From Clostridiales bacterium (GTDB lineage Bacteria; Bacillota; Clostridia; Oscillospirales; Oscillospiraceae), in the NCBI GenBank assembly GCA_021205695.1, contig JAJPXB010000082.1, forward strand, positions 1-34,610: a DNA stretch of 34,610 bases, written 5' to 3'. The translations under genes were made by a program, and so were the position numbers. Positions 6,476 through 34,610 of the stretch are shown one piece after another. Below the pieces are notes generated by a model. It was not told the DNA's origin. It saw only the letters and a program-made list of their open reading frames with translations, and searched no databases. How positions within the stretch are numbered: the stretch's first letter is position 1; each line of letters starts with the position of its first letter.

Positions 6476-6497
6476 AAAAAAATACCTCCTTCCTGGG

Positions 6498-7364: not shown

Positions 7365-7441
7365 TAAGGACTACCTCCTTCCGGAGACGGCCACGGGCAC
7401 TTGAACCACACCCGTGACCGCCAGTGATACGGTGTGACAGA

Positions 7442-7657: not shown

Positions 7658-7764
7658 ACCGATAATCGGAAACCGGACTTGTTTCAGTAGGTCGTTGTGT
7701 ACAGGAAGCAGGAAAGCAAGCCCCGATTTTCGAGGCCCAAATCCGGTCTCCACTCCTTTCCATT

Positions 7765-7829
7765 TTAATTTTTTTGATACGCTTTCTGTTTCCTGTGTGT
7801 CATGGGGTGGGACTGCGAATCCGCTTCAT
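7765..7829 (-). other. Two overlapping mini-ORFs in the Maff2 leader
   Basis: ATG at 7829 has a perfect GAGGAGG 7 nt upstream but encodes only nine residues (MKRIRSPTP), ending at 7800. Its TGA overlaps the ATG (7803) of a second frame of 12 residues (MTHRKQKAYQKN), whose TAA at 7765 lies 1 nt before another ATG (7763). This chain could be a leader peptide or coupling device for Maff2, or just the remains of a damaged 5' region. I see no independent support for the peptides being functional. Confidence 0.25.
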
Positions 7830-7866
7830 AAAGCCACCTCCTCAGCGAAAAGCCCTGTTTTTGGGC

Positions 7867-7919
7867 AAAAAAAGAAGCCCTCCCCGCATATCCCGTTCAT
7901 CCACGGGCGGGGAGGGCTT
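7867..7919 (-). terminator. Rho-independent terminator between the VirD4 block and Maff2
   Basis: A perfect 13-bp stem (7875-7887 paired with 7907-7919, AAGCCCTCCCCGC arm) is followed on the minus strand by CTTTTTTT. It lies just downstream of the 159-aa gene ending at 7934 and divides the T4SS locus into two transcription units. Confidence 0.85.
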
Positions 7920-7933
7920 GGTTGCTGTGCGTC

Positions 7934-8413
7934 TTATCGGGAGGCGTCCTTGTTGCGGGCAGCACGTTTGGGCGCTGTGGGTGCCGTCTGCGCCGCCGCT
8001 GTCTGTTTGCTGGAGAGGTCGGAAAGCACGGAATCCCGGCTCTTTTCCTTATACGCCTCCAGCATGGATTTCAGCTCGGTGTTGGGAACCATCCGGCTTT
8101 CTCTGCTCCAGATGTTCTTGCCGTTTTCGTTCTGCCCCTGCAAGACCGGGCGGGAAACCTTGGTCTGGCCGTCCTCCGGCAGCTTCATCCAGACGCCTTT
8201 GCCGAATTTGTTGTCGTGGATCATGCCGGGTGCGACCACAAAGGTCTGCCAGGGGCGATGATCGTTTGCGGACTGATTGGGGATGCTCACCTGCACCAAC
8301 TGCTTGCCGGATTTAGAGGTGAACGGTTCTCCCACCAGCCCTTTGCCGAACTTGATGGTCACTTCCGGGCGGTCATTGCCACCCGTCGCCGTTGTGCGGT
8401 CATTATCAGCCAT
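7934..8413 (-). CDS. Conserved-looking T4SS-locus protein of unknown function
   Basis: I do not recognise this 159-aa protein. Residues 15-100 look like a compact beta-rich domain (VTIKFGKGLVGEPFTSKSGK, VQVSIPN, WQTFVVAPGMIHDNKFGKG, VWMKLP), which could be an OB-like or SSB-like fold, though that is only an impression. Residues 100-130 form a charged helix, and the tail is Ala/Thr/Lys/Arg-rich and basic (PKRAARNKDASR), compatible with DNA contact. No signal peptide or membrane segment is present, so it is cytoplasmic. It lies 33 nt downstream of the VirD4 gene and is followed by a terminator, so it is the last gene of the upstream unit. A link to substrate DNA handling near the coupling protein is plausible but unproven. 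Confidence 0.65.
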   Translation of the reverse strand: MADNDRTTATGGNDRPEVTIKFGKGLVGEPFTSKSGKQLVQVSIPNQSANDHRPWQTFVVAPGMIHDNKFGKGVWMKLPEDGQTKVSRPVLQGQNENGKNIWSRESRMVPNTELKSMLEAYKEKSRDSVLSDLSSKQTAAAQTAPTAPKRAARNKDASR

Positions 8414-8446
8414 AGCGAACTCCTTTCCGGGCGATAAGCCCTTTTG

Positions 8447-10228
8447 TTATTTTGCGGAGGCCGCAGGGGTCTCCTGGGCAGCGTCCACATCGATGACTTC
8501 AAATTCATCGGTGGGGTGCAGCTTCATCCTGCGGTGAAGAAACGCCTCAATGTCAAAGGCGTTCTTCGGGTCGGCATCGGACGTGTATCTGTAGTTGGGG
8601 TGCTGGGTCAGGTCGTATTTGTCTGACAGGAATGGCCTGACGCCCCGCAACTGCAAGATACATTTGCCGCCGTCCATCACGGCAAGCTCATCCTGGCTCA
8701 TAAGTTCATGGCCAGTCTTTTGATAATTTGTGCCGTAGGAAGGGCTGTTGCCACGGGTGTCCGAGGTGTTGAACATATCAATGGTTTCTTTCCCCAGTGC
8801 AGCGTTCAGCTCTTTTAGCGTGGTCGGTTCTGAGCCACCCAGGAATATCTGACTGTCCATATTGCCGATGATAGTATCGGCGTTGTCCTTGTAGATGGCC
8901 TTGAGCTGGCTTCTGGCCTGCAAAACCAGACAGGCGGAAATCTCACGGCTGCGGATGGTTGCCACGAGCTTCTCCAGATTGGGAATCTGGCCGATGTTCG
9001 CCGCCTCGTCTACCAGGCACCGGACATGAACCGGCAGCCTGCCGCCGTAAACATCATCCGCTTTTTCGCAGAGCAGATTGAAAAGCTGGGAATAGATCAT
9101 GGAAATCAGGAAATTGAAGGTGCCATCCGTATCCGACATAATAAGGAACAGCGCCGTTTTACGGTCCCCTAGGGTGTCCAGTTCCAGCTCATCGTAGGAT
9201 GTGATCTCCCGAAGTTCCTGAATGTCAAAGGGGGCAAGCCGTGCGCCACAGCTCACAAGTATGCTTTTTGCCGTTTTTCCCGCACTCAATTTGAATTTGG
9301 CGTACTGCCGCACCGCAAAGTGATTCGGGTCTTTTTTCTTCAGCTCCTTGAACATCAGGTCTACCGGGTTTTCAAAGGTCTCGTCATCCTCCCGCACTTC
9401 CATAGCGTTAATGAACTCGATGAGTGTGGCGAAATTCTGCTCCTCCACCGGCGCTTCGTAGTGGATATACCCAATGAGCGCCGTATACAGCAGGGTCTCC
9501 GCCTTTTCCCAGAACGGGTCGCCGCCCTTGCCGTCGCCCTTGGTGTTGGTGATAAGGGTCGTAACCAGCTTCAAAATGTCCTTCTCCGAATGAATATAGG
9601 CAAAGGGGTTGTAGTGCATGGATTTTTTGAAGTTGATTGTGTTGAAAAATTTCAGGCGATAGCCATGCTTCAGCATCGCGTTTCCACACTCGATCACGAT
9701 ACTGCCCTTGGGGTCAGTGACCACATACGAGCTGTGCATCTGCAAGAGATTCGGCTTCAACCAAAACCTCGTTTTACCGGAGCCGGAGCCGCCGACGATC
9801 AGCACGTTTTTGTTCCGGGCGTTGGCCGGGTTCTTTGGGCGGTTGGACATCATCAGGCGTTCGGTTTTCGTGAGGATGATATTGTCCTCAAATTTGGGTG
9901 CCATGAATGGCTCGATGTCCTTTGCTGTCCCCCAGCGGGCGGAACCGTATTCCATGTTGTGGCGATACTTTTTGGCGTTTTTGCCTTTCAGGTACACGGC
10001 CAGCCGCAGGCCGCCGCCGCACAGCAACCCGATGAGCAGATCAAAGGGGTGCAGGCTGGGCAGAGGATTTCCAAACGCCTGGGGGACGGTGTACATCAGG
10101 CTGAGTATCTTTTCTCCCGCTGTGCCACCCGTCGCCAGCCGCCACGCCTCGCCCAGATTGGTTGCCACCAGCCCCACCAGCACATAGGGCAGATACATGA
10201 TTAGCAGCTTTTTTGTTTTCTGGCTCAT
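8447..10228 (-). CDS. VirD4-like T4SS coupling protein (CD1115 family)
   Basis: A 593-aa TraG/TraD-type coupling ATPase that delivers the relaxase-DNA complex to the channel. Two N-terminal hydrophobic segments (about residues 7-25 and 60-78) anchor it in the membrane. The motor domain has Walker A GGSGSGKTRF with Lys152, then VTDPKGS, and Walker B CLVDEAANIG with Asp407/Glu408. This is followed by STIRSREISACLVLQARSQL and a late GGSEPTT segment, all typical of VirD4/TcpA-like proteins. The ATG overlaps the stop of the PcfB gene as ATGA, indicating tight coupling. The C-terminal tail after residue 560 is acidic and may be the part that contacts accessory or relaxase proteins. Confidence 0.93.
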   Translation of the reverse strand: MSQKTKKLLIMYLPYVLVGLVATNLGEAWRLATGGTAGEKILSLMYTVPQAFGNPLPSLHPFDLLIGLLCGGGLRLAVYLKGKNAKKYRHNMEYGSARWGTAKDIEPFMAPKFEDNIILTKTERLMMSNRPKNPANARNKNVLIVGGSGSGKTRFWLKPNLLQMHSSYVVTDPKGSIVIECGNAMLKHGYRLKFFNTINFKKSMHYNPFAYIHSEKDILKLVTTLITNTKGDGKGGDPFWEKAETLLYTALIGYIHYEAPVEEQNFATLIEFINAMEVREDDETFENPVDLMFKELKKKDPNHFAVRQYAKFKLSAGKTAKSILVSCGARLAPFDIQELREITSYDELELDTLGDRKTALFLIMSDTDGTFNFLISMIYSQLFNLLCEKADDVYGGRLPVHVRCLVDEAANIGQIPNLEKLVATIRSREISACLVLQARSQLKAIYKDNADTIIGNMDSQIFLGGSEPTTLKELNAALGKETIDMFNTSDTRGNSPSYGTNYQKTGHELMSQDELAVMDGGKCILQLRGVRPFLSDKYDLTQHPNYRYTSDADPKNAFDIEAFLHRRMKLHPTDEFEVIDVDAAQETPAASAK

Positions 10229-10713
10229 CGGTCACGCTCCTGGTGCTTCTCCCGCACCTTCTTCGGCGTGGCGGCAGTCAGGTCAATGAGCTTGTTCAAC
10301 GTCTTCCGAACACTAGGGCGCTTCTGCTTGCTGAGTGCCTGGGCGGTGTACTCCTTGTAAGCCGCAGTCAGCGCTGCCTCATCTCTGGCCTTGAAGAACA
10401 CTGTATACCGGGGAGGGTCAACAGAGGCATCCTTGCGAATGGCGAAGTCCACGCCGTACTTTTTCGCCACACGCTCGAAGCCCTTCAGCTCTGTGTTGGC
10501 AATGGGGATGGTGGAAACGCCCTGATTCTGCCCGATCAGCTCCTCTACGGTCTGCTTGCCATGGGGGACTTCGTTTTTTGCCGCCGTCTTTTTCGCCTTC
10601 ACCTTGGCACGGTGGTTCAGGAACATCCGAAGCCCCTTCATAATGGTTCTGGCGGTCAGTTTGGTGGTGCTGATCGCCAAATTGACCGTCCTGTTCGTTA
10701 CTTCTTCCTGCAA
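10225..10713 (-). CDS. pcfB: PcfB-family conjugation accessory protein
   Basis: A 162-aa basic protein beginning MQEEVTNRTVNLAI, with TTKLTARTIMKGLRMFL and a central KKYGVDFAIRKDA...YTVFFKARD region. This is the pattern of PcfB (DUF3801) proteins, encoded just upstream of VirD4/PcfC-type coupling proteins in Gram-positive conjugative elements and thought to help dock the substrate. The start codon is TTG at 10713, preceded by GGAGGAG 10 nt away. An overlapping ATG slightly upstream is in a different frame and gives an unconvincing product. It is coupled to the coupling-protein gene by an ATGA overlap. Confidence 0.85.
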   Translation of the reverse strand: MQEEVTNRTVNLAISTTKLTARTIMKGLRMFLNHRAKVKAKKTAAKNEVPHGKQTVEELIGQNQGVSTIPIANTELKGFERVAKKYGVDFAIRKDASVDPPRYTVFFKARDEAALTAAYKEYTAQALSKQKRPSVRKTLNKLIDLTAATPKKVREKHQERDR

Positions 10714-10749
10714 TACTCATCATCTCCTCCCAGCAGGGTGGTGGATGTT

Positions 10750-11115
10750 CTACGAAGGGTCTTCCTCCAGAATTTCATCCGAAAGGCCCTCGTAGTTGCG
10801 TCCTTCATCCATAAAATAAACATAGCCATCAAGGAGACCACTCATCGGACGAACCTCGCCATTGGCGCAGACACCCATGAACAGGACTTTATCCTGATAG
10901 GGGCCTTCCTTGCTGCGATAATTCGCATACAGCCCGTCAACGGGGAATGCCTGCACAACATTATCCCGACCAAATACCCTGTCCCACTCGTCCAAAGGTA
11001 CACGCAGGCAAAAATCACCTGTCATCTCCAAAACGATCTCTGAGCCATCTCGATAGGCTCTGATCAGGTAATCCAGATTGATAAACTGGCCTGCACAATC
11101 AATAATCGTTGCCAT
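10750..11115 (-). CDS. Hypothetical ICE protein, 121 aa
   Basis: I do not recognise a family. The protein is small and acidic, without membrane segments or Cys clusters. The N-terminal half (IDCAGQFINLDYLIRAYRD, IVLEMTGDFCLRVPLDEWDRVFG) suggests a compact alpha/beta fold. The C-terminal half is Gly/Tyr-rich (LLDGYVYFMDEGRNYEGLSDEI). GAGGTGAGC precedes the ATG. It sits 8 nt after the DUF3846-like gene and 36 nt before pcfB, so it is expressed with the replication and transfer operon. Confidence 0.65.
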   Translation of the reverse strand: MATIIDCAGQFINLDYLIRAYRDGSEIVLEMTGDFCLRVPLDEWDRVFGRDNVVQAFPVDGLYANYRSKEGPYQDKVLFMGVCANGEVRPMSGLLDGYVYFMDEGRNYEGLSDEILEEDPS

Positions 11116-11123
11116 AGCTCACC

Positions 11124-11759
11124 TCACAGTGCATCGTGACCAGGCTGTGTCCGCTTCACAGCATCCGCTGCCTTGTCCTTTGCGGCGCTTTTCACCGTCT
11201 CATCGTCGATGGGAAGCACGATCAGCCCACGCCCCATCTTCACGAACGCCTCCGGGGTGTGGAACAGCTTCTCGAACTTCTCCATCTGCTCCGGGGTCAG
11301 GGAGCCGAAATCATCCTCGGTCAGCCCCACCACCAGGAAGTCCCCGGTGATGATGTCATACATCTGCCCGTCCTCGTCCCGGAGCGCCCGGTTCAGCGGC
11401 AGACCAGAGAGCTTGCCCTCCTCATTGCAGACCAGACCAACAGGGTCTTCGTAGGGGTACACGACCTCAATGTCGCCGCCCACCGCCGCCTGCAAAGCCT
11501 CCAGCTCGGTGCTGACCTGGAAGGGCTGGGGAAATTCTCCCGGCTTCACCAGAAGCACATCGATCATGTTCCCTTTGCGGGCAGGCTCCCGCCCTTCGCT
11601 GGTCAGAAAATCAACCTGGGTGAAGTTATCCGCATCCAGCACATACTCAGAGTCGAAATAGCCCTGCCTGACCTTTTCCTCTGCCTCCTCTTTGGAAGCG
11701 GCAGTCACAGAGACGGTTTTCTCCAGCGTCTCCGTGATGGTGATGTCATACTCTTTCAT
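11124..11759 (-). CDS. DpnD/PcfM-like plus DUF3846-like fusion protein
   Basis: A 211-aa soluble acidic protein. Residues 1-55 (YDITITETLEKTVSVTAASKEEAEEKV) match the short DpnD/PcfM-type domain, a beta-hairpin followed by a helix. Residues 60-180 (MIDVLLVKPGEFPQPFQV, ALQAAVGGDIEVVYPYEDPVGLVCNEEGKL..GLPLNRAL, ITGDFLVVG) match the DUF3846 pattern found in phage, plasmid and ICE proteins. The biochemical function of both parts is unknown. GGAGG lies 4 nt before the ATG. It sits among other small acidic accessory genes, which in such elements are often linked to defence evasion or establishment; that is inference. Confidence 0.7.
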   Translation of the reverse strand: MKEYDITITETLEKTVSVTAASKEEAEEKVRQGYFDSEYVLDADNFTQVDFLTSEGREPARKGNMIDVLLVKPGEFPQPFQVSTELEALQAAVGGDIEVVYPYEDPVGLVCNEEGKLSGLPLNRALRDEDGQMYDIITGDFLVVGLTEDDFGSLTPEQMEKFEKLFHTPEAFVKMGRGLIVLPIDDETVKSAAKDKAADAVKRTQPGHDAL

Positions 11760-11772
11760 GCGGCCTCCTTCT

Positions 11773-12357
11773 TCACAGCGGCAGTGCCGTGACCGGCTGG
11801 CCGTTCACCACGATGGTCTCGCACTGCTCCTCCAGGATACGCCTTACCAGGTGGATGTCGTCGCCGTCCAGGGACTTGGTGATCCGTCCGATGGTGGAGA
11901 ACACCACCGCCGTGCCGGTCAGGTACTTCTTGCCGTTTACAGCGACCACCGAATCCGGCTTGAAGGTCATCATCAAGTCCAGCAGCGGGAACAGGCAGCC
12001 CACCTCGTCGCCCTCAAACACGTCCAGCACTTCACGGCTGTCCTCCACAGTCATAGCGGTGGCTCCGCACTCCGGGTTGACCACCATCACGATGTCGCAG
12101 GGGCGGAACAGAACGCCGTTCTGGGGGATGCCGTCATACTCCTCATATTCCACGTCGCTGTCCTCATCTTCCTCATCGTCCTCGTCGGACAGCGGCTGTT
12201 CTTCCTGTCGCTCCTCCTGCAACAGCTTGTCGAGCTGGCGCAGGGTCTCGTCCATCATGGCGTCGTTGGCGTCTGTGCGGGTGGTCTGGTTGGCCTTGAA
12301 CCCGAAATTGATATTGATGTCGATGCCGCCGGAGACGATCACGTTAATATCCTGCAT
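11773..12357 (-). CDS. Acidic hypothetical ICE protein, paralog A
   Basis: A 194-aa protein beginning MQDINVIVSGGIDININFGF. The ATG at 12357 is chosen because AAGGAGG lies 8 nt upstream; an extended frame to 12426 has no comparable site. A very acidic linker (DEDDEEDEDSDVEYEEY, about residues 60-80) separates the N-terminus from a C-terminal domain with IVMVVNPECGATAMTVEDSREVL, VNGKKYLTGTAVVF and GDDIHLVRRIL. The C-terminal domain resembles that of the next gene upstream (12474-12983), so the two look like diverged duplicates. No family name is recognised. The charge suggests a protein-binding or DNA-mimic type role, which is speculation. Confidence 0.65.
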   Translation of the reverse strand: MQDINVIVSGGIDININFGFKANQTTRTDANDAMMDETLRQLDKLLQEERQEEQPLSDEDDEEDEDSDVEYEEYDGIPQNGVLFRPCDIVMVVNPECGATAMTVEDSREVLDVFEGDEVGCLFPLLDLMMTFKPDSVVAVNGKKYLTGTAVVFSTIGRITKSLDGDDIHLVRRILEEQCETIVVNGQPVTALPL

Positions 12358-12473
12358 AGAAAATTCCTCCTTCAAAGTTCGTGAGAAACAAAAAATGCGG
12401 CCACCCAGGTGCCAAAACGCACCCAAATGACCGCAGTATGCTTTCTCTGTATTCTGTTTTCATGGTGTTGTGG

Positions 12474-12983
12474 TTACTCCAGGAGCATTGCCGGGAACTC
12501 CTTTCCGTCGCCGCAGAGGGTGGCTTCGTTGTCGGACGCATAGTAGAACGTCCGATAGATGTCGTCGCCGGTCAGGGACAGCAGGTCGCAGTCCTCGTTC
12601 TCCCGGCACACCACCGCAGCGCCCAGCAGGAACACCCTGCCGTCCAGCTTGAGAGCCTGGTCGGTACGGTAATAGAGGGTCAGGTCGGAACCAGCAAAGT
12701 CCTCGATGCAGTCAAACCGCTCATAGAAGCTGGGCATCAGCTCACAGGCTTCTGCGCAGGTCAGCACCTTCGGCTCCCTGCCGGGGCGGAGAACCATGAC
12801 GATTTTCTTGTCCTCCGGCTCCTCTTTGCTTTCATCAGGACGGAACGAGCAGAAAACGTCACGGATAAACTGCTCCACCATCAACCCCATCAGCGCCGCC
12901 GAAATTTCCTGCGACTGCTTTTTGACCTCCTCGCCTACCTGAGCAGACAAGTCGTTCGGGATACCTTTGATTTTGTGATCCAT
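12474..12983 (-). CDS. Hypothetical ICE protein, paralog B
   Basis: A 169-aa soluble protein. The N-terminal helix-rich part (SAQVGEEVKKQSQEISAALMG) leads into a domain with IVMVLRPGREPKVLTCAEACELM, LDGRVFLLGAAVVCRENEDCDLLSLTGDDIYRTF and a GDGKEFPAMLLE tail. The order and spacing of these blocks match the C-terminal domain of the neighbouring gene at 11773-12357, implying an old tandem duplication. AAAGGAG lies 9 nt before the ATG. No catalytic motif is evident. Confidence 0.65.
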   Translation of the reverse strand: MDHKIKGIPNDLSAQVGEEVKKQSQEISAALMGLMVEQFIRDVFCSFRPDESKEEPEDKKIVMVLRPGREPKVLTCAEACELMPSFYERFDCIEDFAGSDLTLYYRTDQALKLDGRVFLLGAAVVCRENEDCDLLSLTGDDIYRTFYYASDNEATLCGDGKEFPAMLLE

Positions 12984-13023
12984 AGTGTAGAACTCCTTTC
13001 ACGATTGCGTATTTTGCAGCCCT

Positions 13024-13905
13024 TTACCGGGCCTGATCTCGCTGCCTCCGCCGCTGCCACTGTTCCAGCAGCTTGATGATGGTCTTTTCCATCTGCTGGG
13101 GCGTGTAGGACTTGGGAAAATACTTCCGCAGGTCGTTTGCCTTGAACGTCACCCGGTCAATGTCATCTTTTTTGACCTCATTCATGATCTCGCACATGGA
13201 CTCCAGGGTTGCCGTCCCTTCCTGGCTCTGCTTTTTCAGCCGCTGTGCCTGGGAGAGAGAAGGGGTAGCCTGGGCGTAGTCCATAGCGTCCAGAAGCAGC
13301 GCCTGTTCCGCTCTGGAGAGATAGGAAATCTCCACTGCTGGTCGAAATGCAATTTTTCCCTCATCTACCATGTTCATTAAGTCAGGAACCAAATTTGTTA
13401 AGCGAATATACCGCTGTACCTGACGCCCACTTTCGCCAGCGTCCTTTCCCAGCATATCAGCCGCTCCTAACTTCTCGACCAGTGGTCGAGAAGTTAAATC
13501 CGACCTGGCTCCCTGATGCTTCATAGCGTCCAGCTTCATCTTGTACGCCCATGCCCGCTCGCTGGGGAGGATGGTCTCTCGCTGGAGATTGGCGTCCACC
13601 ATTGTGATGATCGCTTCATCATCATCCATTTCACGGACGATAACCGGCAGGGTCTTCAGCCCCACCAGCTCCGCCGCATGACAGCGCCGGTGGCCGGAAA
13701 TAATCTCATAGCCGCCGTCCGGGTCAGGCCGGGCCAGCAGCGGGGAAATGACCCCGAACTGGGAAATGCTCTCCACGGTGCGGGTCATGGCCTCATCGTC
13801 CACCACCCGGAAGGGATGTCCCTCAAAGGGGTGCAGTTCCGTGATGGGTATCTGCTGAACCTGTTCCTGTGAGGGTGTGCCTTTGGTTTCGACTTCATTC
13901 GACAA
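13024..13905 (-). CDS. parB: ParB/Spo0J-family partition protein
   Basis: A 293-aa ParB-like protein. The N-terminal ParB/Srx-type domain runs from ITELHPFEGHPFRV (residue 21) through the GHRRC motif (71-75) to LQRETILPSERAWAYKMKL. A central helix-turn-helix region follows (ESGRQVQRYIRLTNLVPDLMNMV, then IAFRPAVEISYLS). The C-terminus is basic and Gln/Arg-rich. It should stabilise or license the excised circular ICE, or act as a replication or expression regulator as similar ICE ParB proteins do. The start is TTG at 13905, with GGAGGTG about 7 nt upstream. Codons around residues 137-146 contain a 29-bp palindrome (see separate entry). It lies downstream of the initiator and DnaC-like genes. 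Confidence 0.9.
   Translation of the reverse strand: MSNEVETKGTPSQEQVQQIPITELHPFEGHPFRVVDDEAMTRTVESISQFGVISPLLARPDPDGGYEIISGHRRCHAAELVGLKTLPVIVREMDDDEAIITMVDANLQRETILPSERAWAYKMKLDAMKHQGARSDLTSRPLVEKLGAADMLGKDAGESGRQVQRYIRLTNLVPDLMNMVDEGKIAFRPAVEISYLSRAEQALLLDAMDYAQATPSLSQAQRLKKQSQEGTATLESMCEIMNEVKKDDIDRVTFKANDLRKYFPKSYTPQQMEKTIIKLLEQWQRRRQRDQAR
13468..13496. repeat. Perfect 14-bp inverted repeat with 1-nt centre inside parB
   Basis: The arm TAACTTCTCGACCA (13468-13481) is followed by one G and its exact reverse complement (13483-13496). Such a long perfect palindrome is not required by the encoded peptide (around SRPLVEKL). It could be a protein-binding site, a hairpin in the mRNA, or the trace of an insertion. 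It does not resemble the parS consensus of chromosomal ParB. Confidence 0.9.
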
Positions 13906-13971
13906 AATTTGTCACCTCCATTTCTGCGTGAATTTTGAGACTATTAAGTCAGCACATGGGAACCACCTCCC

Positions 13972-14805
13972 TTAACTGCCATAGAGCAGGTCTTTGACCA
14001 GCGCCTGCTTGTCCCGCCCGATCTCCGTGCGCCTGTCTGTTCCACGCACCTGCAACGGGGTACACAGTTCCAACACCCGGCTGTAGATGCGGGCGTGAGC
14101 CACATCCTCGGCATTGCGAATCTGGTTGATGGTCAGATTGGTGGTGATGATGAGGGGCTTCTTCGATTTGTAGCGTTCATCAATGACCGCATAGACCTGT
14201 TCCAGCGCATACTCGGTATTGCGCTCGATGCCCAGGTCGTCGATGATGAGTAGCTCGAAGGACGAAAAAGAAGCGATATACTTGTATCGCTCCTCTGAGT
14301 ACATCCCACCCATCTGGTTTAATATCTTAGAAAAGTTTGTCATCAGCACAGGCACCCCGGTCTCCAGTAGGGCGTTGGCAATGCAGGCGGCTATAAATGA
14401 TTTTCCTGTTCCAACGTCGCCCCAGAGCAGGAGACCGAGGTTGTGCTTTCTGACCTCCGGCCAACTGTCCACATAGCGCCTTGCCATTTGGATGCTGGGG
14501 CTGTCCGCTGCCTTCTCAAACGTCCAGTCATACAAAGCCCGTTCCTGAATACCGTTGGCTTTCAGGCTGTAGATATGATTTCGACGGTTCATCTCCGCCA
14601 GCTCACGTTCGTATTTGTCCAGCTCTTCTTTGGCACAGCTACACATACAGGAAACAATGCTCTGTCTGCCTGCGATTTCCACCCGGCATTGGGTAGGCGT
14701 ATGGCATTTTTTGCAGTAAAAAAGGCCGTCCTCTCCGACATATTCCTCGTCGGAAGGCTCGGCTTTCATGTTCCGGTCAAAGAGGGAAGATAACAGCTCG
14801 TTCAT
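13972..14805 (-). CDS. DnaC/IstB-like helicase loader ATPase
   Basis: A 277-aa AAA+ protein starting MNELLSSLF. The ATG at 14805 has GAGGAGGGAG upstream and overlaps the preceding stop (ATGA); an upstream start at 14826 would lie on top of that ribosome site. Residues 25-60 hold four cysteines of a probable zinc-binding region (CKKC...CMCSC). The ATPase core has Walker A GDVGTGKSF with Lys135 and Walker B LLIIDDLG, followed by the sensor-like PLIITTNLT. It probably loads the replicative helicase on the excised ICE in partnership with the initiator encoded just upstream. Confidence 0.88.
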   Translation of the reverse strand: MNELLSSLFDRNMKAEPSDEEYVGEDGLFYCKKCHTPTQCRVEIAGRQSIVSCMCSCAKEELDKYERELAEMNRRNHIYSLKANGIQERALYDWTFEKAADSPSIQMARRYVDSWPEVRKHNLGLLLWGDVGTGKSFIAACIANALLETGVPVLMTNFSKILNQMGGMYSEERYKYIASFSSFELLIIDDLGIERNTEYALEQVYAVIDERYKSKKPLIITTNLTINQIRNAEDVAHARIYSRVLELCTPLQVRGTDRRTEIGRDKQALVKDLLYGS

Positions 14806-15557
14806 AGGCTTTCTCCCTCCTCGCATCTGTAGTTGTCGTGGCTGTAACCGCCTGTTCCCGTGGCAGAGACTGTCTGCCGCCGGTCTCTCCTCGCCCAGCT
14901 CCGAATGGTAGCCAGGTGGCTCTTGTATGACTTCCCGGTGGAGGCCATATACTCGGACAGGCGCTCGATCCGCCGCTGGTAGTCCTGGGGGAACTCAGCC
15001 CGTAAAGAAGAAAGCTCAGAATCTGACAGAAGGACATTGCCGTACTCCCCATACTGGTGGCGAGGCTCTTTCTCCTTCTTTCTTTTATTTGAGTCAGTAT
15101 TTATTTCTTCTTTACTTCTTTCTTCTTTATTTATTTGTGCCTGATTTTCCAGCGCAGGTTCCTCCAGCGCTGGACTTTCCTGCACTGGATTATCCAGCGT
15201 TGGATTTTCCTGTGCTGGATTATCCTGCGCTGGATTTTCTGCTTTAGGTGGTGACACACCCTGTTGAGGCATCTCATAGATCACATAGACGTTATCCCGA
15301 AGCAGCCCCTTTGCATCTCTGCGCCGCTCACGCACCAGATAGCCGCACTGTTCCAGTTCCTTCAGCCCGGAAGAAATCCCGCTCCGGCCTTCTTTACAGA
15401 TAGCGGCCAACCCTGCGATGCTGTAATCCCAGTTATCGGGCAAGCTCAGGAAAACAGAGAGCAGCCCCTTCGCTTTCAGCGTCAGGTTCCTGTCTCTCAG
15501 GTGGTAGTTGCACATGGTTGTATAATTTGTGTTTTTCTCAACTCGAAAGACCGGCAT
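14802..15557 (-). CDS. Helix-turn-helix replication initiator-like protein
   Basis: A 251-aa protein with an N-terminal winged-helix region (residues 1-95: TTMCNYHLRDRNLTLKAKGLLSVF, then YSIAGLAAICKEGRSGISSGLKELEQCGYLVR), as in RepA/DnaD-like initiators of ICEs and low-copy plasmids. Residues 109-143 are a pentapeptide tandem repeat of PxxxN type. A Lys/Glu-rich linker follows, and the C-terminal domain (ELSSLRAEFP..YQRRIERLSEYMASTGKSYKSHLATIRSWARR) resembles a DnaD-type helicase-interaction tail. The ATG at 15557 has GGAGGTGAG upstream. Its neighbours, a DnaC-like loader and ParB, support a role in autonomous replication of the excised element. Confidence 0.8.
   Translation of the reverse strand: MPVFRVEKNTNYTTMCNYHLRDRNLTLKAKGLLSVFLSLPDNWDYSIAGLAAICKEGRSGISSGLKELEQCGYLVRERRRDAKGLLRDNVYVIYEMPQQGVSPPKAENPAQDNPAQENPTLDNPVQESPALEEPALENQAQINKEERSKEEINTDSNKRKKEKEPRHQYGEYGNVLLSDSELSSLRAEFPQDYQRRIERLSEYMASTGKSYKSHLATIRSWARRDRRQTVSATGTGGYSHDNYRCEEGESL
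15129..15233 (-). repeat. 15-bp tandem repeat coding for a pentapeptide repeat
   Basis: Seven imperfect 15-bp units encode PAQDN, PAQEN, PTLDN, PVQES, PALEE, PALEN and QAQIN in the linker of the initiator-like protein. Unit number could vary by slippage without breaking the frame. Confidence 0.85.
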
Positions 15558-16184: not shown

Positions 16185-17078
16185 TTAGGCGGTTAGTCCA
16201 AATATATCACTAGCATCGCCAATAGATGTCACTGTCTCCGGGATAGCGATCTTTGTCAGCCCGGTGCAGGCGTAAAATACGCCCTCAGACAAGATGGTCA
16301 CACTGTTCGGAATCTCGATGGATTTTAACCCGCTGCAGCTGTAAAAAGCCTCTGCGCCGATTTCAGTGACTGTGTCCGGGATGTTGATCGAGGCAAAAGA
16401 GGAGCAGTTGTAAAATGCCTGTTCCCCGATGGTGGTCAGGCCCTCCGGCAGCGTCAGCGCAGTCAGGGCTTTGCAGCCGTAAAAAGCATCCATCCCAATC
16501 GTGGTAACGCTCTCCGGCAGGGTGGCGGAGGTCATGGCTTCGCAGCCATAAAATGCGTAGTCCCCCACATTTGTGACCCCATCTGTTATGACAACTGCCG
16601 TGATTGAGTCCACATAGCTATACCAGGGAATGCCGCCGTACCAGTCCCAGGACTCCATAGCCCCGGAGCCGCTGATGGTCAGCGTATAATCTCCATCCAG
16701 AACCCACGTCAGGCTGTCGCCGCAGGAGCCGCTGTCAATGATTTCTGCTTCCGTTGAATCATCGGCCGTTTCATCGGACTCAGCTTCTTCCGTTGCATCA
16801 TCAGCCATTTCGTCGGAAACAGCCTCTTCCGAGATTGTCAAATATTCTTCGCTACTCTCACCTGCCACATTTTCCACAGCCTCCGATTCTTCATCGGGTG
16901 CCTGTGTTTCCAAGTCAGGAGATTGCTCCTCTGTCGCCATTGCCCCAGTGCTATTTCTTGCGTTTCCTCTGCTATCAACTTGCGTACCTTTTGCATAGGC
17001 TGAAGAACTGATGCAGCTTATGACCAACGCGCCTGCCAGCATTGCTGACATAAGGCGCAGGAATCTTTTGTGTTTCAT
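16185..17078 (-). CDS. Secreted BspA-like leucine-rich repeat protein
   Basis: A 297-aa protein with a signal peptide (residues 1-29: basic start, LMSAMLAGALVISCIS, SAYA) and an acidic low-complexity region rich in Glu/Ser/Thr/Ala (40-115). A CGDSLTWVL...LTISGSGAM module comes next, and then about five BspA-type LRR_5 repeats (TTIGMDAFYGCKALTALTLPEG type). These proteins mediate binding or signalling at the surface in gut bacteria. There is no LPxTG or membrane tail, and the protein stops abruptly after TSIGDASDIFGLTA. It may therefore be truncated, or it may be secreted freely. GGAGG precedes the ATG. It is the last gene of the surface operon, 19 nt after the CotH gene. Confidence 0.85.
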   Translation of the reverse strand: MKHKRFLRLMSAMLAGALVISCISSSAYAKGTQVDSRGNARNSTGAMATEEQSPDLETQAPDEESEAVENVAGESSEEYLTISEEAVSDEMADDATEEAESDETADDSTEAEIIDSGSCGDSLTWVLDGDYTLTISGSGAMESWDWYGGIPWYSYVDSITAVVITDGVTNVGDYAFYGCEAMTSATLPESVTTIGMDAFYGCKALTALTLPEGLTTIGEQAFYNCSSFASINIPDTVTEIGAEAFYSCSGLKSIEIPNSVTILSEGVFYACTGLTKIAIPETVTSIGDASDIFGLTA

Positions 17079-30856: not shown

Positions 30857-31144
30857 TTAGCATCTCAGAACGACGCCCTTGGACATGGCCATATTCAGAA
30901 AATCGGCAACATCCTGACAACTCTCCTCCTCAGTCAACTCATACTCCTTTGCCAATGCTGCAGATAGCTGATGAAACGTCTTCTCCTGCTCCAACAGCTT
31001 CCACAAAAACAGGCCGGTTTTATTCAGAGACGCCAGCCCGCTAAATCGCTCGGCTGCCCTTCCAACAGGCACGAGGATATTTTCGCCTGCGATCTCCCGG
31101 TATACGAAATCCGGGTTGGCGCAGAATACATCCGAATCGTTCAT
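30857..31144 (-). CDS. PqqD-family RiPP recognition element protein
   Basis: A 95-aa protein of the PqqD fold: a beta-rich start (FVYREIAGENILVPVG), then LNKTGLFLWKLLEQEKTFHQLSAALAKEYELTEEESCQDVADFLNMAMSKGVV. The helix-turn-helix-like LNxTGxxLW and the final VxxFLxxxxxKGVV pattern are characteristic. Such stand-alone recognition elements hold the leader of a precursor peptide and present it to a radical SAM enzyme. It is the first gene of the surface and peptide operon; the adhesin gene separates it from the precursor and enzyme genes. GATGAGGG directly before the ATG serves as ribosome site. No promoter is evident upstream in the present orientation. Confidence 0.82.
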   Translation of the reverse strand: MNDSDVFCANPDFVYREIAGENILVPVGRAAERFSGLASLNKTGLFLWKLLEQEKTFHQLSAALAKEYELTEEESCQDVADFLNMAMSKGVVLRC

Positions 31145-31211: not shown

Positions 31212-31228
31212 TTTCGTAGAGCTGACAA
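31212..31228 (-). repeat. 17-bp inverted repeat, left copy
   Basis: Reads TTGTCAGCTCTACGAAA on the minus strand. It is identical to the plus-strand copy at 32665-32681. It lies in the leader of the PqqD gene, 68 bp from its ATG. Confidence 0.93.
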
Positions 31229-31256
31229 CTCTGTGGCTTACGCCTGCTACAAAACG

Positions 31257-31289
31257 CAAAAAAGCCTGAAATTACAACAATTTCAGGCT
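31257..31289 (-). terminator. Terminator of the recombinase gene
   Basis: A perfect 11-bp stem (31263-31273 with 31279-31289) with a 5-nt loop is followed by TTTTTT on the minus strand. It lies 43 bp after the recombinase stop and before the left inverted repeat, so recombinase transcripts should not reach the PqqD gene. Confidence 0.9.
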
Positions 31290-31313
31290 CATTCTGTTTA
31301 CTACTGACTGCGG

Positions 31314-31328
31314 AATTTGACTGCGAAT
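31314..31328 (+). repeat. 15-bp direct repeat, copy next to recombinase 3' end
   Basis: AATTTGACTGCGAAT, preceded by CTGCGG, lies immediately beyond the recombinase stop codon. The second copy is at 32496-32510, upstream of its start. Candidate recombinase-binding or attachment site. Confidence 0.85.
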
Positions 31329-31331
31329 CAT

Positions 31332-32450
31332 TCAAAATCCAACAGCGGTTAGCTTATCCATATTATTCCTTTTAAGCTCCATTGAGGAGTGTACATAACG
31401 GTTTAGAGTGATAGAAGTATTTGCATGACCCAGAATTTCACTAAGGCTCTTGATCTCAAAGCCGACCTCCACACAGCGGGTGGCGAAGGTGTGGCGGAGC
31501 GTATGAAAATGTACTCCTTCGAGGCCACAATCCTCCATATAACGCTTGAACCGATACTGCAAGGTTCTAGGTTCCATATAGCTTTCTGTTCCGGTCAGAA
31601 CAAATGCGGATGCGATGGAAGGCATAAATTCCCTGCAAAGAGCAATCACATTGGCTGTCAACGGAATAGTCCGGGAGGACGCATCACTTTTGGGATTGCC
31701 AAAGCTGATATGCGTTTTCGCTTCACTGGTTGAATCGAAATTTTTCACTCTCTGCATTGTGACGGAAACCGTTACGGTGCGGTTCTGTATGGAGATGTCC
31801 GACCATCGCAGGGCGCAAAGCTCTCCAATCCGCAGGCCTGTTGCAAGAGCCAGGTAAACGCCAAATTTACATAAATCCATATCCGAAAGGAGGTATTGCA
31901 CCAATTTATCCTGCTCCTCTCTCGTCAAAACACGCATCTCCTTCCTCTGCTCCCGCGGGTAAATAATCTCAATATCTGACATGCCTCTCGGTATCTGCTT
32001 TCGGGTGAAAGCAATGGCCATCTTCAGCACGGTAAGAATATCCCGGACTGACTTTGCAGCCAGACCTCGCTCCATCAAAAGATCAGCCTTAAACTGCTCC
32101 ACCAGCTCGGTAGAAAGCGCATACGGATGATAATTACCCAACTGGGGTTTGACATAGTTTTCAAGGATCATACTGTATTTGGCGTAGGTGGATGATTTGA
32201 TTGCAGTCTTGTGCTGCTCCAACCACTTGTCGCAGTAGTAGCAAAATCGCTGCCTGCTTTTTACCGCATTGGATCCGTCTGCCGAAACAATGTGAGCCTT
32301 TAAAACTGTAACCTTATTCCTTGCCTCTGTATAGGTTTTACCGTAGCAAAATCCATATTTTGCCTTGCCTGATACGTCGTATCCCTTGATATAACGGGCT
32401 TCCCATCGGCCATCCTTTCGTTTAAATATGTTCTCGCCTTTTCTTGGCAT
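31332..32450 (-). CDS. Tyrosine recombinase / integrase
   Basis: A 372-aa phage/ICE-type integrase. The N-terminal 60 residues form an arm-binding-like domain (GRWEARYIKGYD..GKAKYGFCYGKTYTEA). A SAM-like core-binding domain follows (about 65-160). The catalytic domain has Arg207 (ATGLRIGELCALRW), His316 and Arg319 (FHTLRHTFAT), His near 340 (LGHANTSIT) and the nucleophile Tyr352 (NRYVH). All key residues are present, so it should be active. AGGAGG lies 9 nt before the ATG. The gene is flanked by direct repeats and, further out, by 17-bp inverted repeats. It could integrate a mobile element, invert the surrounding segment, or both. No excisionase gene is visible nearby. Confidence 0.95.
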   Translation of the reverse strand: MPRKGENIFKRKDGRWEARYIKGYDVSGKAKYGFCYGKTYTEARNKVTVLKAHIVSADGSNAVKSRQRFCYYCDKWLEQHKTAIKSSTYAKYSMILENYVKPQLGNYHPYALSTELVEQFKADLLMERGLAAKSVRDILTVLKMAIAFTRKQIPRGMSDIEIIYPREQRKEMRVLTREEQDKLVQYLLSDMDLCKFGVYLALATGLRIGELCALRWSDISIQNRTVTVSVTMQRVKNFDSTSEAKTHISFGNPKSDASSRTIPLTANVIALCREFMPSIASAFVLTGTESYMEPRTLQYRFKRYMEDCGLEGVHFHTLRHTFATRCVEVGFEIKSLSEILGHANTSITLNRYVHSSMELKRNNMDKLTAVGF

Positions 32451-32495
32451 GGTACAAATCCTCCTGTTTCATTGGAATGGCTACATTGTACTGCG

Positions 32496-32510
32496 AATTT
32501 GACTGCGAAT
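32496..32510 (+). repeat. 15-bp direct repeat, copy next to recombinase 5' end
   Basis: AATTTGACTGCGAAT again, here preceded by CTGCG, 46 bp upstream of the recombinase start. It is in the same orientation as the copy at 31314-31328. Confidence 0.85.
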
Positions 32511-32523
32511 AGATTCCCGGCCT

Positions 32524-32539
32524 TTGGTATTCAAACCAA
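32524..32539. promoter_or_regulatory. Operator-like palindrome upstream of recombinase
   Basis: TTGGT, a 6-nt spacer and ACCAA form a short palindrome about 75 bp upstream of the recombinase start, where its promoter should lie. It could bind a repressor such as the nearby Xre protein. The evidence is weak. Confidence 0.3.
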
Positions 32540-32600
32540 TTTTGCTGCCAGAACCCACTAAATCGGTGCCTAATTTTTTGAAATTTTTCCTATCTTGTAG

Positions 32601-32628
32601 TTGAAATCCAAAAAGAAAGTGGTATAAT
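32601..32628 (+). promoter_or_regulatory. Strong outward promoter with extended -10
   Basis: TTGAAA (32601-32606), a 16-bp spacer, and TATAAT (32623-32628) preceded by TGG give an extended -10. It points right, across the inverted repeat at 32665-32681, with transcription expected to start near 32635. In this orientation nothing but a terminator follows closely. Confidence 0.78.
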
Positions 32629-32664
32629 GAGTCTATATACGTGAAAGTGGGGCTGTTCGCATAT

Positions 32665-32681
32665 TTGTCAGCTCTACGAAA
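32665..32681 (+). repeat. 17-bp inverted repeat, right copy
   Basis: TTGTCAGCTCTACGAAA, the exact inverse partner of 31212-31228. It lies about 30 nt into the predicted transcript from the promoter at 32601-32628. Confidence 0.93.
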
Positions 32682-32709
32682 AAATGATAAAGTTAACTCG
32701 CTTTTAACG

Positions 32710-32752
32710 ACGGCAATAGTTTCAAAAGATGAAACTGTTGCCGTTCTTTTTT
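32710..32752 (+). terminator. Strong terminator facing the outward promoter
   Basis: A 15-bp stem with one G-U type mismatch (32710-32724 with 32730-32744, ACGGCAATAGTTTCA arm) and a 5-nt loop is followed by TCTTTTTT. It lies 29 bp outside the right inverted repeat, so it would not move if the segment inverted. Between it and the Xre gene (32753-32887) I see only AT-rich sequence and the operator-like repeat. Confidence 0.88.
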
Positions 32753-32854
32753 CTCGATTCTACTTCTCAAACTGGATTTATTCTTCATTATATCTATTTC
32801 AACAAGATATGTCAATGAATTTACCTAGTCAAACCGGACAGAATCAACATATGT

Positions 32855-32871: not shown

Positions 32872-32887
32872 GCAGGCGGTGATTGGC

Positions 32888-33199
32888 ATGGAAAAATCTG
32901 ATTTTGGGAAAAGATTAAGTGAACTCCGGGGCAATAAAGGCGTTTCAGCAAGGGATATGAGCCTCACATTAGGGCAAAGCCCTGGTTATATCAACAATGT
33001 CGAGAATGGTATCAACTACCCATCTATGACGTTGTTCTTCTATATTTGCGAGTATCTAGGTGTATCCCCCAAAGACTTCTTTGACATAGGAAATACTCAT
33101 CCTGATAAAATTAATGAGCTACTGGATGCTGTGAAGGACTTGGATGCAGATAACCTTTCACACCTGATTGCTCTGGCAAAAGCACTAAAGCAGAAATGA
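32888..33199 (+). CDS. Xre-family small transcriptional repressor
   Basis: A 103-aa DNA-binding protein. The helix-turn-helix occupies residues 8-60 (FGKRLSELRGNKGVSARDMSLTLGQSPGYINNVENGINYPSMTLFFYICEYLGVSPKDFF), and a helical tail (DKINELLDAVKDLDADNLSHLIALAKAL) is probably for dimerisation. The ATG at 32888 follows AGGCGGTG; a GTG three codons earlier overlaps that site and is less likely. It is the only convincing plus-strand gene in the window. A palindrome lies just before it and a strong terminator separates it from the outward promoter, so it needs its own promoter. It may regulate the recombinase or the neighbouring mobile region, but the target is not shown. Confidence 0.88.
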   Translation: MEKSDFGKRLSELRGNKGVSARDMSLTLGQSPGYINNVENGINYPSMTLFFYICEYLGVSPKDFFDIGNTHPDKINELLDAVKDLDADNLSHLIALAKALKQK

Positions 33200-33386: not shown

Positions 33387-34610
33387 TTAGGTGCCGCGGC
33401 CGGAAGTGACGTCACCATTCACGGCCTCGATGGCGTAATAGTAGGTGGTGCCGGAGACCGGGCTGGTGCTGAGATAGGTGGTGCCGGTGGTGGTGGCGCA
33501 CTTCTCCCACTTGCCGGTGGAGTTGTTCAGCCGCCAGACGATGTATTCGGCGGCACCGTCCACGGCGTCCCAGCCCACGGACACGCCGTTGGTGGCGTTG
33601 TAGAGAGAGGTGATGGTGGGGGCGGTGAGCTCGGTAATCGTGGTTTCTGCGTAGTGGATGGTGGCCGATGTCAACGCCTCATTATTATCGCCAATGCTTA
33701 TGGCAGCCCAGTCGGCCTCGGAGCCAGCATAGTATACATCGGTCAGGCTGGTGCAGTCGTAAAACGCAGAACTGCCGATGCTGGTCACGCTGTCCGGTAT
33801 CGTCACGCTGGCAAGGCTCGTGCAACTCCGGAAGGCACCAGCGCCGATGGAAATGACGCCGCTGCCGATGGTCGCACTGGTCAGGCTCGTGCAGTTCCAA
33901 AACGCCCAGACGTCAATACTGGTCACGCTGTCCGGTATTGTGATGCTCGTCAGGCTCGTGCAGTTGTAAAACGCGCAAAAACCAATGCTGGTCACTCCGT
34001 CTGCGATGGTTACGCTGGTCAGGCTCGTGCAATCGGAGAACGCATATTCGTCAATGCTGGTCACGCTTCCCGGAATCGTGATGCTCGTCAGGCTCGTGCA
34101 GCCTTCAAATGCAGAACGTCCAATACTGGTCACTCCGTCCGAAATCGTTACGCTCGTCAGGCTGCTGTAGTTATAAAACGCCCACTTACCAATGCTGGTC
34201 ACGCCATTCTCAATGGTCACAGAAGCGATAGACGTACGATAGCTGTACCAAGGGACGCTGGAATAGCTGCTCCAATCCGTCATATCTCCTGTCCCGCTGA
34301 TAGTCAGTTTTCCATCGCTCACCCTCAGCACCCAAATCAGGCCGTCGCCGCAGGTGCCGCTCTCCGCGTCCCTGCCATAGTGGATAGTGGCGGAGGTCAG
34401 GTAAGTGTTGAAGGAGCGGATGCTGATGGCCGTCCAAGTGAGCTTAGACCCCTCATAGTATACATCGGCCAAGTTGGTACAGTTGTAAAACGCCCATTCA
34501 TCAATGAGGGTCACGCTTTCCGGAATCGTGATGCTTGTCAGGCCCGTGCAGCCGTAAAATGCATAGCTGCCAATGCTGGTCACGCCGTCCGGTATCGTGA
34601 TGCTCGTCAG
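33387..34610 (-). CDS. BspA-like leucine-rich repeat protein, 5' end outside window
   Basis: The frame is open to the window edge, so the N-terminus and signal peptide are not seen. The visible 407 residues contain LRR_5/BspA repeats of 23 residues (TSIGxxAFxxCTSLTSVTIPDSV). They are interrupted by two spacer modules (ADVYYEGSKLTWTAISI, and SGTCGDGLIWVL..LTISGTGDM..PWYSY, the latter also found in the protein at 16185-17078). After the last repeats comes a fibronectin-III-like domain (LTAPTITSLYNATNGVSVGW to YYYAIEAVNGDVTSGRGT). The protein stops in that domain, about one strand short of the usual end, so it may be C-terminally truncated. It is probably a surface or secreted binding protein. 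It ends before the bidirectional terminator. Confidence 0.85.
   Translation of the reverse strand: MTSITIPDGVTSIGSYAFYGCTGLTSITIPESVTLIDEWAFYNCTNLADVYYEGSKLTWTAISIRSFNTYLTSATIHYGRDAESGTCGDGLIWVLRVSDGKLTISGTGDMTDWSSYSSVPWYSYRTSIASVTIENGVTSIGKWAFYNYSSLTSVTISDGVTSIGRSAFEGCTSLTSITIPGSVTSIDEYAFSDCTSLTSVTIADGVTSIGFCAFYNCTSLTSITIPDSVTSIDVWAFWNCTSLTSATIGSGVISIGAGAFRSCTSLASVTIPDSVTSIGSSAFYDCTSLTDVYYAGSEADWAAISIGDNNEALTSATIHYAETTITELTAPTITSLYNATNGVSVGWDAVDGAAEYIVWRLNNSTGKWEKCATTTGTTYLSTSPVSGTTYYYAIEAVNGDVTSGRGT
33720..34200 (-). repeat. 69-bp tandem repeats encoding leucine-rich units
   Basis: About seven units of 69 bp, each encoding one 23-residue BspA-type repeat. Near-identical blocks such as CAGGCTCGTGCAGTT recur, so unit loss or gain by recombination is likely. 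Confidence 0.85.

Follow-up and report, generated by a model that had tools for sequence, protein, structure and literature searches.

A predicted self-contained promoter-inversion cassette with its own tyrosine recombinase in Clostridia

Introduction

Promoter inversion by tyrosine recombinases is already known, and so are recombinases located inside invertible segments. Here we analyse a stretch of 34,610 nucleotides from a Clostridiales bacterium of the family Oscillospiraceae (assembly GCA_021205695.1, contig JAJPXB010000082.1; the whole stretch is referred to as the window), in which a pair of inverted repeats encloses a tyrosine recombinase gene and an outward-pointing promoter in front of a putative operon with a PqqD-like and a radical SAM gene. 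An earlier, sequence-only reading had proposed that this segment is a recombinase-borne promoter inversion switch. Following up this proposal, we conclude that the segment is very probably a self-contained phase-variation cassette: inversion of this type of cassette is shown by comparison between loci, and for the window copy it is what we infer.

Among the closest described systems, the promoter of the Hin and Gin switches points out of the invertible segment, and Hin is a serine recombinase that uses a Fis-bound enhancer. The window cassette resembles Hin and Gin in having its recombinase gene within the segment and a promoter pointing out of it, but differs from them in its tyrosine recombinase, its dyad core sites, its 7-bp spacer and its arm-like direct repeats. 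The position of the Hin gene inside its invertible segment is described in PMC5903667. The same paper lists a putative 844-bp invertible segment in Providencia stuartii, near a fimbrial locus, with 14-bp imperfect repeats and a recombinase open reading frame (ORF) inside. Compared by description, this switch likewise encloses a recombinase ORF, but it is a single, shorter case from another phylum, whereas the cassette belongs to a family in Clostridia with a conserved outward promoter and arm-like sites. In C. difficile, one recombinase, RecV, acts on several switches (cwpV, flg) and only Cdi7 has a recombinase nearby (PMC5903667). The RecV switches are like the cassette in that inversion by a tyrosine recombinase governs surface genes in Clostridia; unlike them, each cassette carries its own recombinase.

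A local invertase also serves the invertible promoters of Bacteroidales integrative conjugative elements (ICEs), which have spread on conjugative elements; there the invertase gene is followed by the invertible region (PMC8748976), whereas the cassette surrounds its gene. Members of the IntTn916 subgroup (Tn916 and Tn1549 Int) are described as integrases of ICEs and phages, and the same survey of tyrosine recombinases links the arm-binding domain to mobility function (PMC8138268). The cassette recombinase has its best solved-structure match in this subgroup, an N-terminal extension where an arm-binding domain would be expected and arm-like sites that may correspond to arm sites, but sits between inverted sites together with a promoter and, by comparison, inverts. 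The Rin shufflon of bifidophages, described in PMC6109161 as being without an arm-type domain, is likewise a tyrosine-family DNA invertase of gut-associated DNA; unlike the cassette, it shuffles receptor-binding-protein genes and no promoter. Finally, tyrosine-type recombinase genes are enriched near some groups of invertons, one of them in both regulatable and non-regulatable positions (PMC11892184). We found no description of an integrase-type cassette family, nor of a phase-variable radical SAM/PqqD operon, in the literature searched, a body outside which most subscription papers and all bioRxiv preprints fall.

Results

The inverted repeats reported by the sequence-only reading (TTTCGTAGAGCTGACAA and TTGTCAGCTCTACGAAA) are perfect over 17 bp and lie exactly at 31212-31228 and 32665-32681. 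Inverted pairs of 17-mers within 3 kb number one in the window and none in 60 Markov shuffles, and the exact repeat occurs at only two places in the whole 2.24-Mb genome, both in this cassette; no contig with the alternative, inverted junction was seen in the same assembly. Allowing up to three mismatches adds three copies (C40 with two mismatches, C23 and C79 with three), of which only the one at C40 is likely to be meaningful, because a backward control pattern also yields three. A possible site acting in trans at C23:2243 was set aside, as it has long open frames around it and no partner site in the 800 bp read. The two crossover sites that overlap the repeats (Table 1) are in inverted orientation about 1.45 kb apart, and not in the direct orientation of the attachment sites of an integrative element.

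Between the repeats lies a complete tyrosine recombinase gene, as had been read from the sequence. Its product matches Phage_integrase (E 3.2e-28) and carries the R, HxxR, H and Y catalytic motifs, with R207, H316, R319, H342 and Y352 invariant in all nine aligned proteins; a serine recombinase domain found no match in the window recombinase. The best matches among solved structures are 6EN0, 6EMY and 6EMZ (E 1e-25 to 5e-25, aligned from residue 80; next best 1.3e-15), which we take to be Tn1549 Int. Judged among solved structures only, the core-binding and catalytic parts thus appear closest to Tn916/Tn1549 Int. The first 60 residues are conserved and stand at the position of the arm-binding domain in Tn916/Tn1549-type integrases; this N-terminal part has no Pfam match to that domain at E<=5 in four proteins and no match among solved structures.

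The extended -10 promoter pointing outward across the right repeat, also proposed earlier, scores better than expected by chance (p = 0.01 against 100 shuffles; p = 0.99 on the opposite strand). The strong terminator beyond that repeat is present as well, at a distance of 27 nt, however, and not the 29 nt originally given. On the other side, the expectation that the recombinase transcript ends before PqqD agrees with a predicted terminator between the two, and a 250-nt stretch adjoining the left repeat, toward PqqD, contains no promoter-like signal (p = 0.85). The sequence-only reading did not contain the external consensus promoter, the dyad make-up of the crossover sites, the arm-like direct repeats or the paralogous copies described below. 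In the window and in L017 this consensus promoter, outside the right site, reads into the recombinase gene, whose expression would therefore depend on the orientation of the cassette.

Relatives of the recombinase were taken from a genome collection (12 loci), from the genus, where 9 of 32 genomes had a match (E<=1e-60), and from the family (32 of 400 genomes with a match). The window, the 12 collection loci and 40 of the 46 other places in the genus and family make up 53 loci for a site test (G295:C118, G125:C92, G398:C19, G062:C19, G062:C16 and G013:C33 were left out); with L092 excluded, where the recombinase lies at a contig edge, 52 were testable. A locus passed when its inverted repeats had a score greater than 12 that also exceeded the best of 20 shuffles; here and in the family scans for promoters (inside the cassettes and in their flanks), arm-like sites and terminators, shuffles preserve single-base content only. 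Inverted repeats flank the recombinase in 39 of the 52 loci, among relatives whose recombinases are down to 34-40% identical, keeping in mind that two of those counted (L021 and L089) look weak or like chance on reading. The span from repeat to repeat has a median of 1486 bp, and in 37 of the 39 loci it lies between 1290 and 1545 bp. As a control, other tyrosine recombinases of the same genome were treated alike, wider flanks included: flanking inverted repeats were found at none of seven loci, which represent six genes (L003 and L005 are one gene, and L004 is a short frame). Within the family, the assembly splits the recombinase frame of L023, and the matches of L026, L077 and L078 do not include the N-terminal part.

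Comparison of loci shows that either orientation of the cassette is found in this family. L019 and L020, from two 'Lapin' metagenome genomes, have a common flank that is 94.75% identical over 4764 bp and includes a gene for an SLH surface protein, along with cassettes that are 97.2% identical; relative to the common flank, the cassette of one is reversed in the other, and the switch point falls at the repeats (the L020 contig ends 2 nt past its site). Altogether, 32 flank matches were found between loci: 11 connect opposite sides, 20 connect the same side, and L068/L072 (same side but opposite strand) is not interpretable and was counted neither way. Weaker opposite-side matches are those of L063/L068, L081/L083, L023/L076, L074/L098 and L095/L098 (the last with both flanks swapped, and short), and those of L085 with L088, L089, L090 and L100. 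Since several of the partners (L081, L085, L088 and L100) failed the site test, only L019/L020 is decisive for inversion. In the window's genus, the recombinase beside the PqqD operons of L081 and L083 reads toward PqqD in one and away from it in the other; in L083, which comes from another species of the genus, the cassette stands before the PqqD operon in the ON orientation.

The outward promoter is conserved along with the sites. A sigma-70-like promoter (p<=0.05) is found on the outward strand in 31 of 38 loci and on the opposite strand in 5; the outward -10 box ends 10-80 nt inside the site in 31 of 38, and 29 combine this position with p<=0.05. L026, with its short upstream part, is not in the promoter and arm-like-site counts, and the best outward matches of L019 and L020 overlap arm-like sites and are not promoters near the site. 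Promoter signals outside the sites are near chance level (4/39, 4/39, 3/37 and 5/37 in four flanking stretches), and the cassette thus brings along a promoter of a kind mostly missing from the sequence around it. Terminator-like hairpins lie beyond the site in 9 of 40 loci on the promoter side (0.6 expected) and in 2 of 38 on the other (0.3 expected). Two candidate family features were rejected: external inward promoters, present in 4 of 39 loci, and the internal recombinase terminator, which a strict scan finds in 4 of 38 loci and which is a trait of the window's close group.

Crossover-like sites of the family follow a dyad consensus, TCGYAGAG-N7-CTCTRCGA, from which some subgroups deviate (for example with TCTTTAAG or CCGCAGTT arms). 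By script (which misplaced the dyad in L017, L020, L021, L022, L063, L068, L094 and L099), 38 of 40 loci have the same 7-bp spacer at both sites, and 38 different spacers were counted; this test of equality is partly built in, because the sites were found by their match. Spacers of the close group read ctgacaa in the window, ctgccaa in L016 and ctatcaa in L017 (the last by eye), equal within each locus and unlike between loci, and they stay equal within the locus as one site arm has diverged. This is the pattern that repeated recombination between partner sites would maintain.

In 27 of 38 loci (2.6 expected), arm-like sites with the consensus ATTCGC(A/C)GTCAAA, read in the direction of the recombinase, precede the gene; in 26 (1.3 expected) they follow it, and 22 of the 38 have them at both ends. 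This consensus was derived from the window, and up to 3 mismatches in 13 positions were allowed. Orientation is almost invariant, at 38:0 before the gene and 26:1 after it, so that 64 of 65 point one way. By analogy with Tn916/lambda-type integrases, these sites probably bind the N-terminal domain of the recombinase, and ATTCGCAGTCAAA would be the candidate target of its N-terminal 65 residues.

Four radical SAM genes of the operon type occur in the genome from which the window comes (C5, which is the window, C40, C47 and C12), and their upstream regions differ. C40 (L082) carries a recombinase 93% identical to that of the window, in the same orientation. C47 has, before a third PqqD operon, a decayed cassette in the opposite, ON orientation, whose two sites lie some 585 and 74 bp upstream of PqqD and whose promoter faces PqqD; what remains is pieces of a recombinase with stops and traces of the terminator and of arm-like sites, the two spacers agree at 5 of 7 positions (by eye) and the sites are not recognised as a pair by the repeat finder. 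No cassette was seen before PqqD in C12, and its upstream region (L151) was rejected as kin of the cassette promoter (score 27, against a shuffle best of 35). L154, which belongs to a different species in the genus, lacks a cassette, and there a homologous promoter stands immediately in front of PqqD. Similarity to the window promoter scores 52 for C47 and 60 for L154, where the best of 500 shuffles reach 34 and 33. Both fixed forms are in favour of the view that the promoter of the cassette would act as the operon promoter when it faces PqqD. In C40, a DDE_Tnp_1 transposase gene (G000:C40, 1-1258) adjoins the outward promoter right where its -10 box ends.

A cassette, or what is left of one, precedes the PqqD/radical SAM operon in the window, C40, C47, L016, L017, L081, L083 and L158 (the last outside the site test), and Pfam confirms PqqD in each of the eight loci compared with it (L083, L081, L150, L154, L158, L151, L016 and L017). 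Among 40 further radical SAM stretches, several of them cut by contig ends, a family recombinase lies beside PqqD only in L158, with a distant match far off in L168; the C47 remnant is too decayed for such a recombinase search. As the radical SAM operon thus also exists without the cassette, the switch is an addition to the operon.

Elsewhere in the family, cassettes adjoin other genes. We tested 19 other neighbouring proteins, chosen by hand, against Pfam. Reading away from cassettes are genes for surface proteins with SLH (L020, L075, L086), Cna-B and SpaA (L077, L066) and repeat or DUF11 domains (L073, L064, L067), for capsule and transport functions (sugar transferases in L023 and L076, CpsB in L025, an ABC-2 transporter in L069) and for signalling (CheW in L101, EAL/GGDEF in L027), and one for PP2C (L024). 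Helix-turn-helix (HTH) genes lie beside the cassettes of L016 and L080, and the neighbours tested in L094 and L088 have no Pfam match. The neighbours, then, appear to serve envelope and signalling functions, with the proviso that distances reach 700 nt and adjacency is no proof of regulation.

Cassettes also turn up in records filed as phages and plasmids. Among 16 listed matches, five were tested and four have sites, namely a Ruminococcus albus 7 plasmid and three contigs from human faeces that are filed as phage, with Enterococcus gilvus as the miss; one of the four positives, L192, repeats L079 and is not independent. Recombinase patterns were not found in the viral contigs of IMG/VR. The faecal contigs (L191, L192 and L193) are filed as 'Bacteriophage sp.', each with a cassette; since its outward sequence is identical to that of L079, from a bacterial genome, at least L192 is probably bacterial DNA. 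Named strains with a cassette are Vescimonas fastidiosa MM35, on whose plasmid it lies near dockerin/cohesin proteins (L190, 9001-10197, the same as L093; integrase WP_212822192.1), and Ruminococcus albus 7, on plasmid pRUMAL02 (L194, 5983-7068, within a cassette at 5858-7154). One genome, G302, has four cassettes (L063, L067, L068 and L072), and because L063 and L068 have the same site sequence, cross-recombination between these loci is conceivable.

Discussion

How might the window cassette work? In the mechanism we propose, the recombinase would bind the two inverted core sites (31214-31236 and 32657-32679), and strand exchange across their common 7-bp spacer would invert about 1.45 kb, comprising the recombinase gene and one outward promoter; the direct arm-like sites flanking the gene may help to shape the inversion complex. 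As sequenced, the promoter would point right, into a terminator, the recombinase would read toward PqqD and stop at its own terminator, and the operon of PqqD, HprK-like, radical SAM and surface-protein genes is expected to be OFF. After inversion, the promoter would come to lie just upstream of PqqD with no terminator between them, and the operon is expected to be ON. We infer that the window copy is active, OFF as drawn and ON when inverted; that a single 15-kb operon stands behind the switch is plausible. The central proposal of the sequence-only reading is supported in that all structural elements are present, sites and promoter recur across the family and the cassette is reversed between L019 and L020. 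Comparison likewise supports the assignment of states, with the ON arrangement seen in L083 and, decayed, in C47, and the homologous promoter before PqqD in L154.

Several observations weigh against this interpretation. L019 and L020 differ in species, by design of the collection, and the majority of flank matches (20/32) link the same side, which means no inversion. The four window-like copies (window, C40, L016 and L017) are all in the same orientation. No inverted repeats passed the test in 13 of the 52 loci: L017 (12 bp, a tie with the control), L018, L025, L066, L078, L081, L082, L085, L086, L087, L088, L091 and L100, keeping in mind that in L018, L025, L081 and L086 a contig end lies close to the expected site and that in L082 (C40) a transposase gene is found there. 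A sense-strand promoter for the recombinase is not evident inside the window cassette (p = 0.99), and is significant in 5 of 38 loci. Lastly, a perfect promoter outside the right repeat reads through the cassette toward the operon, so that the OFF state rests on the terminator of the recombinase and may be leaky.

This external promoter (32815-32787) could be taken further: it might drive the operon through the cassette in either orientation, with inversion merely tuning recombinase expression. Its match to the consensus is complete (12/12) and it is kept in L017, but the recombinase terminator stands between it and PqqD as sequenced, external promoters are not conserved (4/39) whereas the cassette promoter is, and in L154 it is a homologue of the cassette promoter that lies directly before PqqD. 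We therefore consider this scenario very unlikely. A different role for the cassette promoter itself would be that of a two-way switch, serving the HTH regulator at 32879-33199 as sequenced and the PqqD operon when inverted. HTH genes reading away from the promoter side are indeed seen in the window, L016 and L080 by domain match, and in L017 and L079 by eye. However, a strong terminator separates promoter and HTH gene in both the window and L017, and only 4 of 39 loci (window, L016, L079 and L080, by eye) have an HTH gene at that place, which makes the two-way arrangement quite unlikely.

More basic doubts concern whether the window copy inverts, or whether inversion is what the recombinase does. 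The window might be a former switch locked OFF, in which the sites persist and the copy no longer inverts. Two copies in the same genome look locked, C40 with a transposase at the promoter -10 and C47 with its decayed recombinase, and one arm of the window's right site is degenerate; the window recombinase, however, is intact with its motifs, and the window spacers are identical, compared to 5/7 agreement in decayed C47. A locked copy is unlikely on this evidence, if not negligibly so. Alternatively, the recombinase could be the integrase of an integrative element, the repeats its attachment sites or transposon ends, and any regulation of PqqD incidental. Conjugation genes at 1.3-10.2 kb of the window, their presence next to the L016 cassette and a Tn1549-type Int as the best solved match would all fit. 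Yet the sites are inverted, not direct, and lie about 1.45 kb apart around one gene, repeatedly beside unrelated genes; the difference between L019 and L020 is an inversion, not an excision; and the outward promoter is conserved. We regard an integrative element as highly improbable.

Returning to the phase-variation cassette, its possible history deserves a tentative sketch, to which, taken as a whole, we give somewhat less than an even chance. A Tn916-type integrase may have become a portable phase module, with inverted core sites, arm sites inside that move along and an added outward promoter, so that any adjacent operon could be switched. In the window and L017, where the only good recombinase promoter lies outside the cassette, the enzyme would be made in the OFF state and lost after inversion, resulting in a one-sided switch that is more stable when ON than when OFF. 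Such modules would then decay to fixed-ON promoters (C47, L154) or be disabled by insertions (C40). If a family with arm-like sites inverts a promoter, it would illustrate how an integrase can turn into a regulator, and it would provide a compact natural toggle.

Our results also suggest that phase variation in gut Clostridia may be undercounted. Invertons are reported to be few in Clostridia-like genomes, with a median of 3 per genome (PMC11892184). Invertible regions containing or overlapping coding sequences were removed in PMC8748976, a step by which cassettes of the window type would have been filtered out. In addition, the two annotated records with a cassette name the recombinase only 'site-specific integrase'.

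Genomic surroundings of the window cassette

Table 1. Features of the cassette, its putative target operon and adjacent sequence, in window coordinates.
Feature	Coordinates	Strand	Remarks
BspA-type leucine-rich repeat protein	16185..17078	-	domain match
CotH kinase-domain protein, 921 aa	17098..19863	-	domain match
GH2-type glycoside hydrolase with Big_4, 1580 aa	19961..24703	-	domain match
Radical SAM protein, 395 aa	24687..25874	-	domain match
HprK-like protein, 305 aa	25875..26792	-	weak match
Cys-containing ORF, 83 aa	26843..27094	-	candidate precursor peptide, from position and similar short ORFs in L016 and L017
Large protein, 1227 aa	27109..30792	-	Cadherin-like domain; N-terminus looks secreted
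PqqD-like peptide chaperone	30857..31144	-	first gene of putative target operon
Left crossover site	31214..31236	.	arm TCGTAGAG, 7-bp spacer ctgacaa, arm CTCTGTGG; overlaps repeat 31212-31228
Intrinsic terminator of recombinase transcript (predicted)	31262..31290	-	between recombinase and PqqD as sequenced; z -4.7 against shuffles
Arm-like site after recombinase gene	31303..31328	+	TTTGACTGCGAAT exact at 31316-31328; imperfect second copy beside it, by eye
Tyrosine recombinase	31332..32450	-	372 aa; best solved match 6EN0; Tyr352
Two tandem arm-like sites before recombinase gene	32485..32510	+	TACTGCGAAT, TTTGACTGCGAAT
Outward promoter	32601..32628	+	TTGAAA-16-TATAAT, TG before -10; -10 ends 36 nt inward of right repeat; points away from PqqD as sequenced
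Right crossover site, inverted	32657..32679	.	spacer and outer arm as left; inner arm divergent, TCGCATAT; overlaps repeat 32665-32681
Intrinsic terminator outside right repeat	32709..32745	+	hairpin -23.3 kcal/mol, z -6.3; would stop outward promoter as sequenced
External consensus promoter	32787..32815	-	TTGACA-17-TATAAT, 12/12 consensus; outside cassette, reads into recombinase; kept in L017
HTH regulator	32879-33199		beyond right repeat, reads away from promoter side; HTH domain match

The short Cys-containing ORF of the window, for which no family match was found, has counterparts with alike starts in L016 (3783-4022) and L017 (3383-3598), which begin with a KxYxxPxL-like motif where the window has GYEKPMI. 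In all three loci these ORFs sit between PqqD and the HprK-like/radical SAM genes, and they are candidate precursors of a modified peptide.

At 1300-15557, on the minus strand, the window contains a conjugation module (NlpC/P60, VirB4-like, TrbL, TraG/VirD4, ParB and DnaC-like proteins), and the switched operon may therefore be cargo of an ICE; TraG adjoins the cassette in L016 as well. At the other end of the window (33387-34610, minus strand), a BspA-type leucine-rich repeat protein with 69-nt repeat units runs off the contig.

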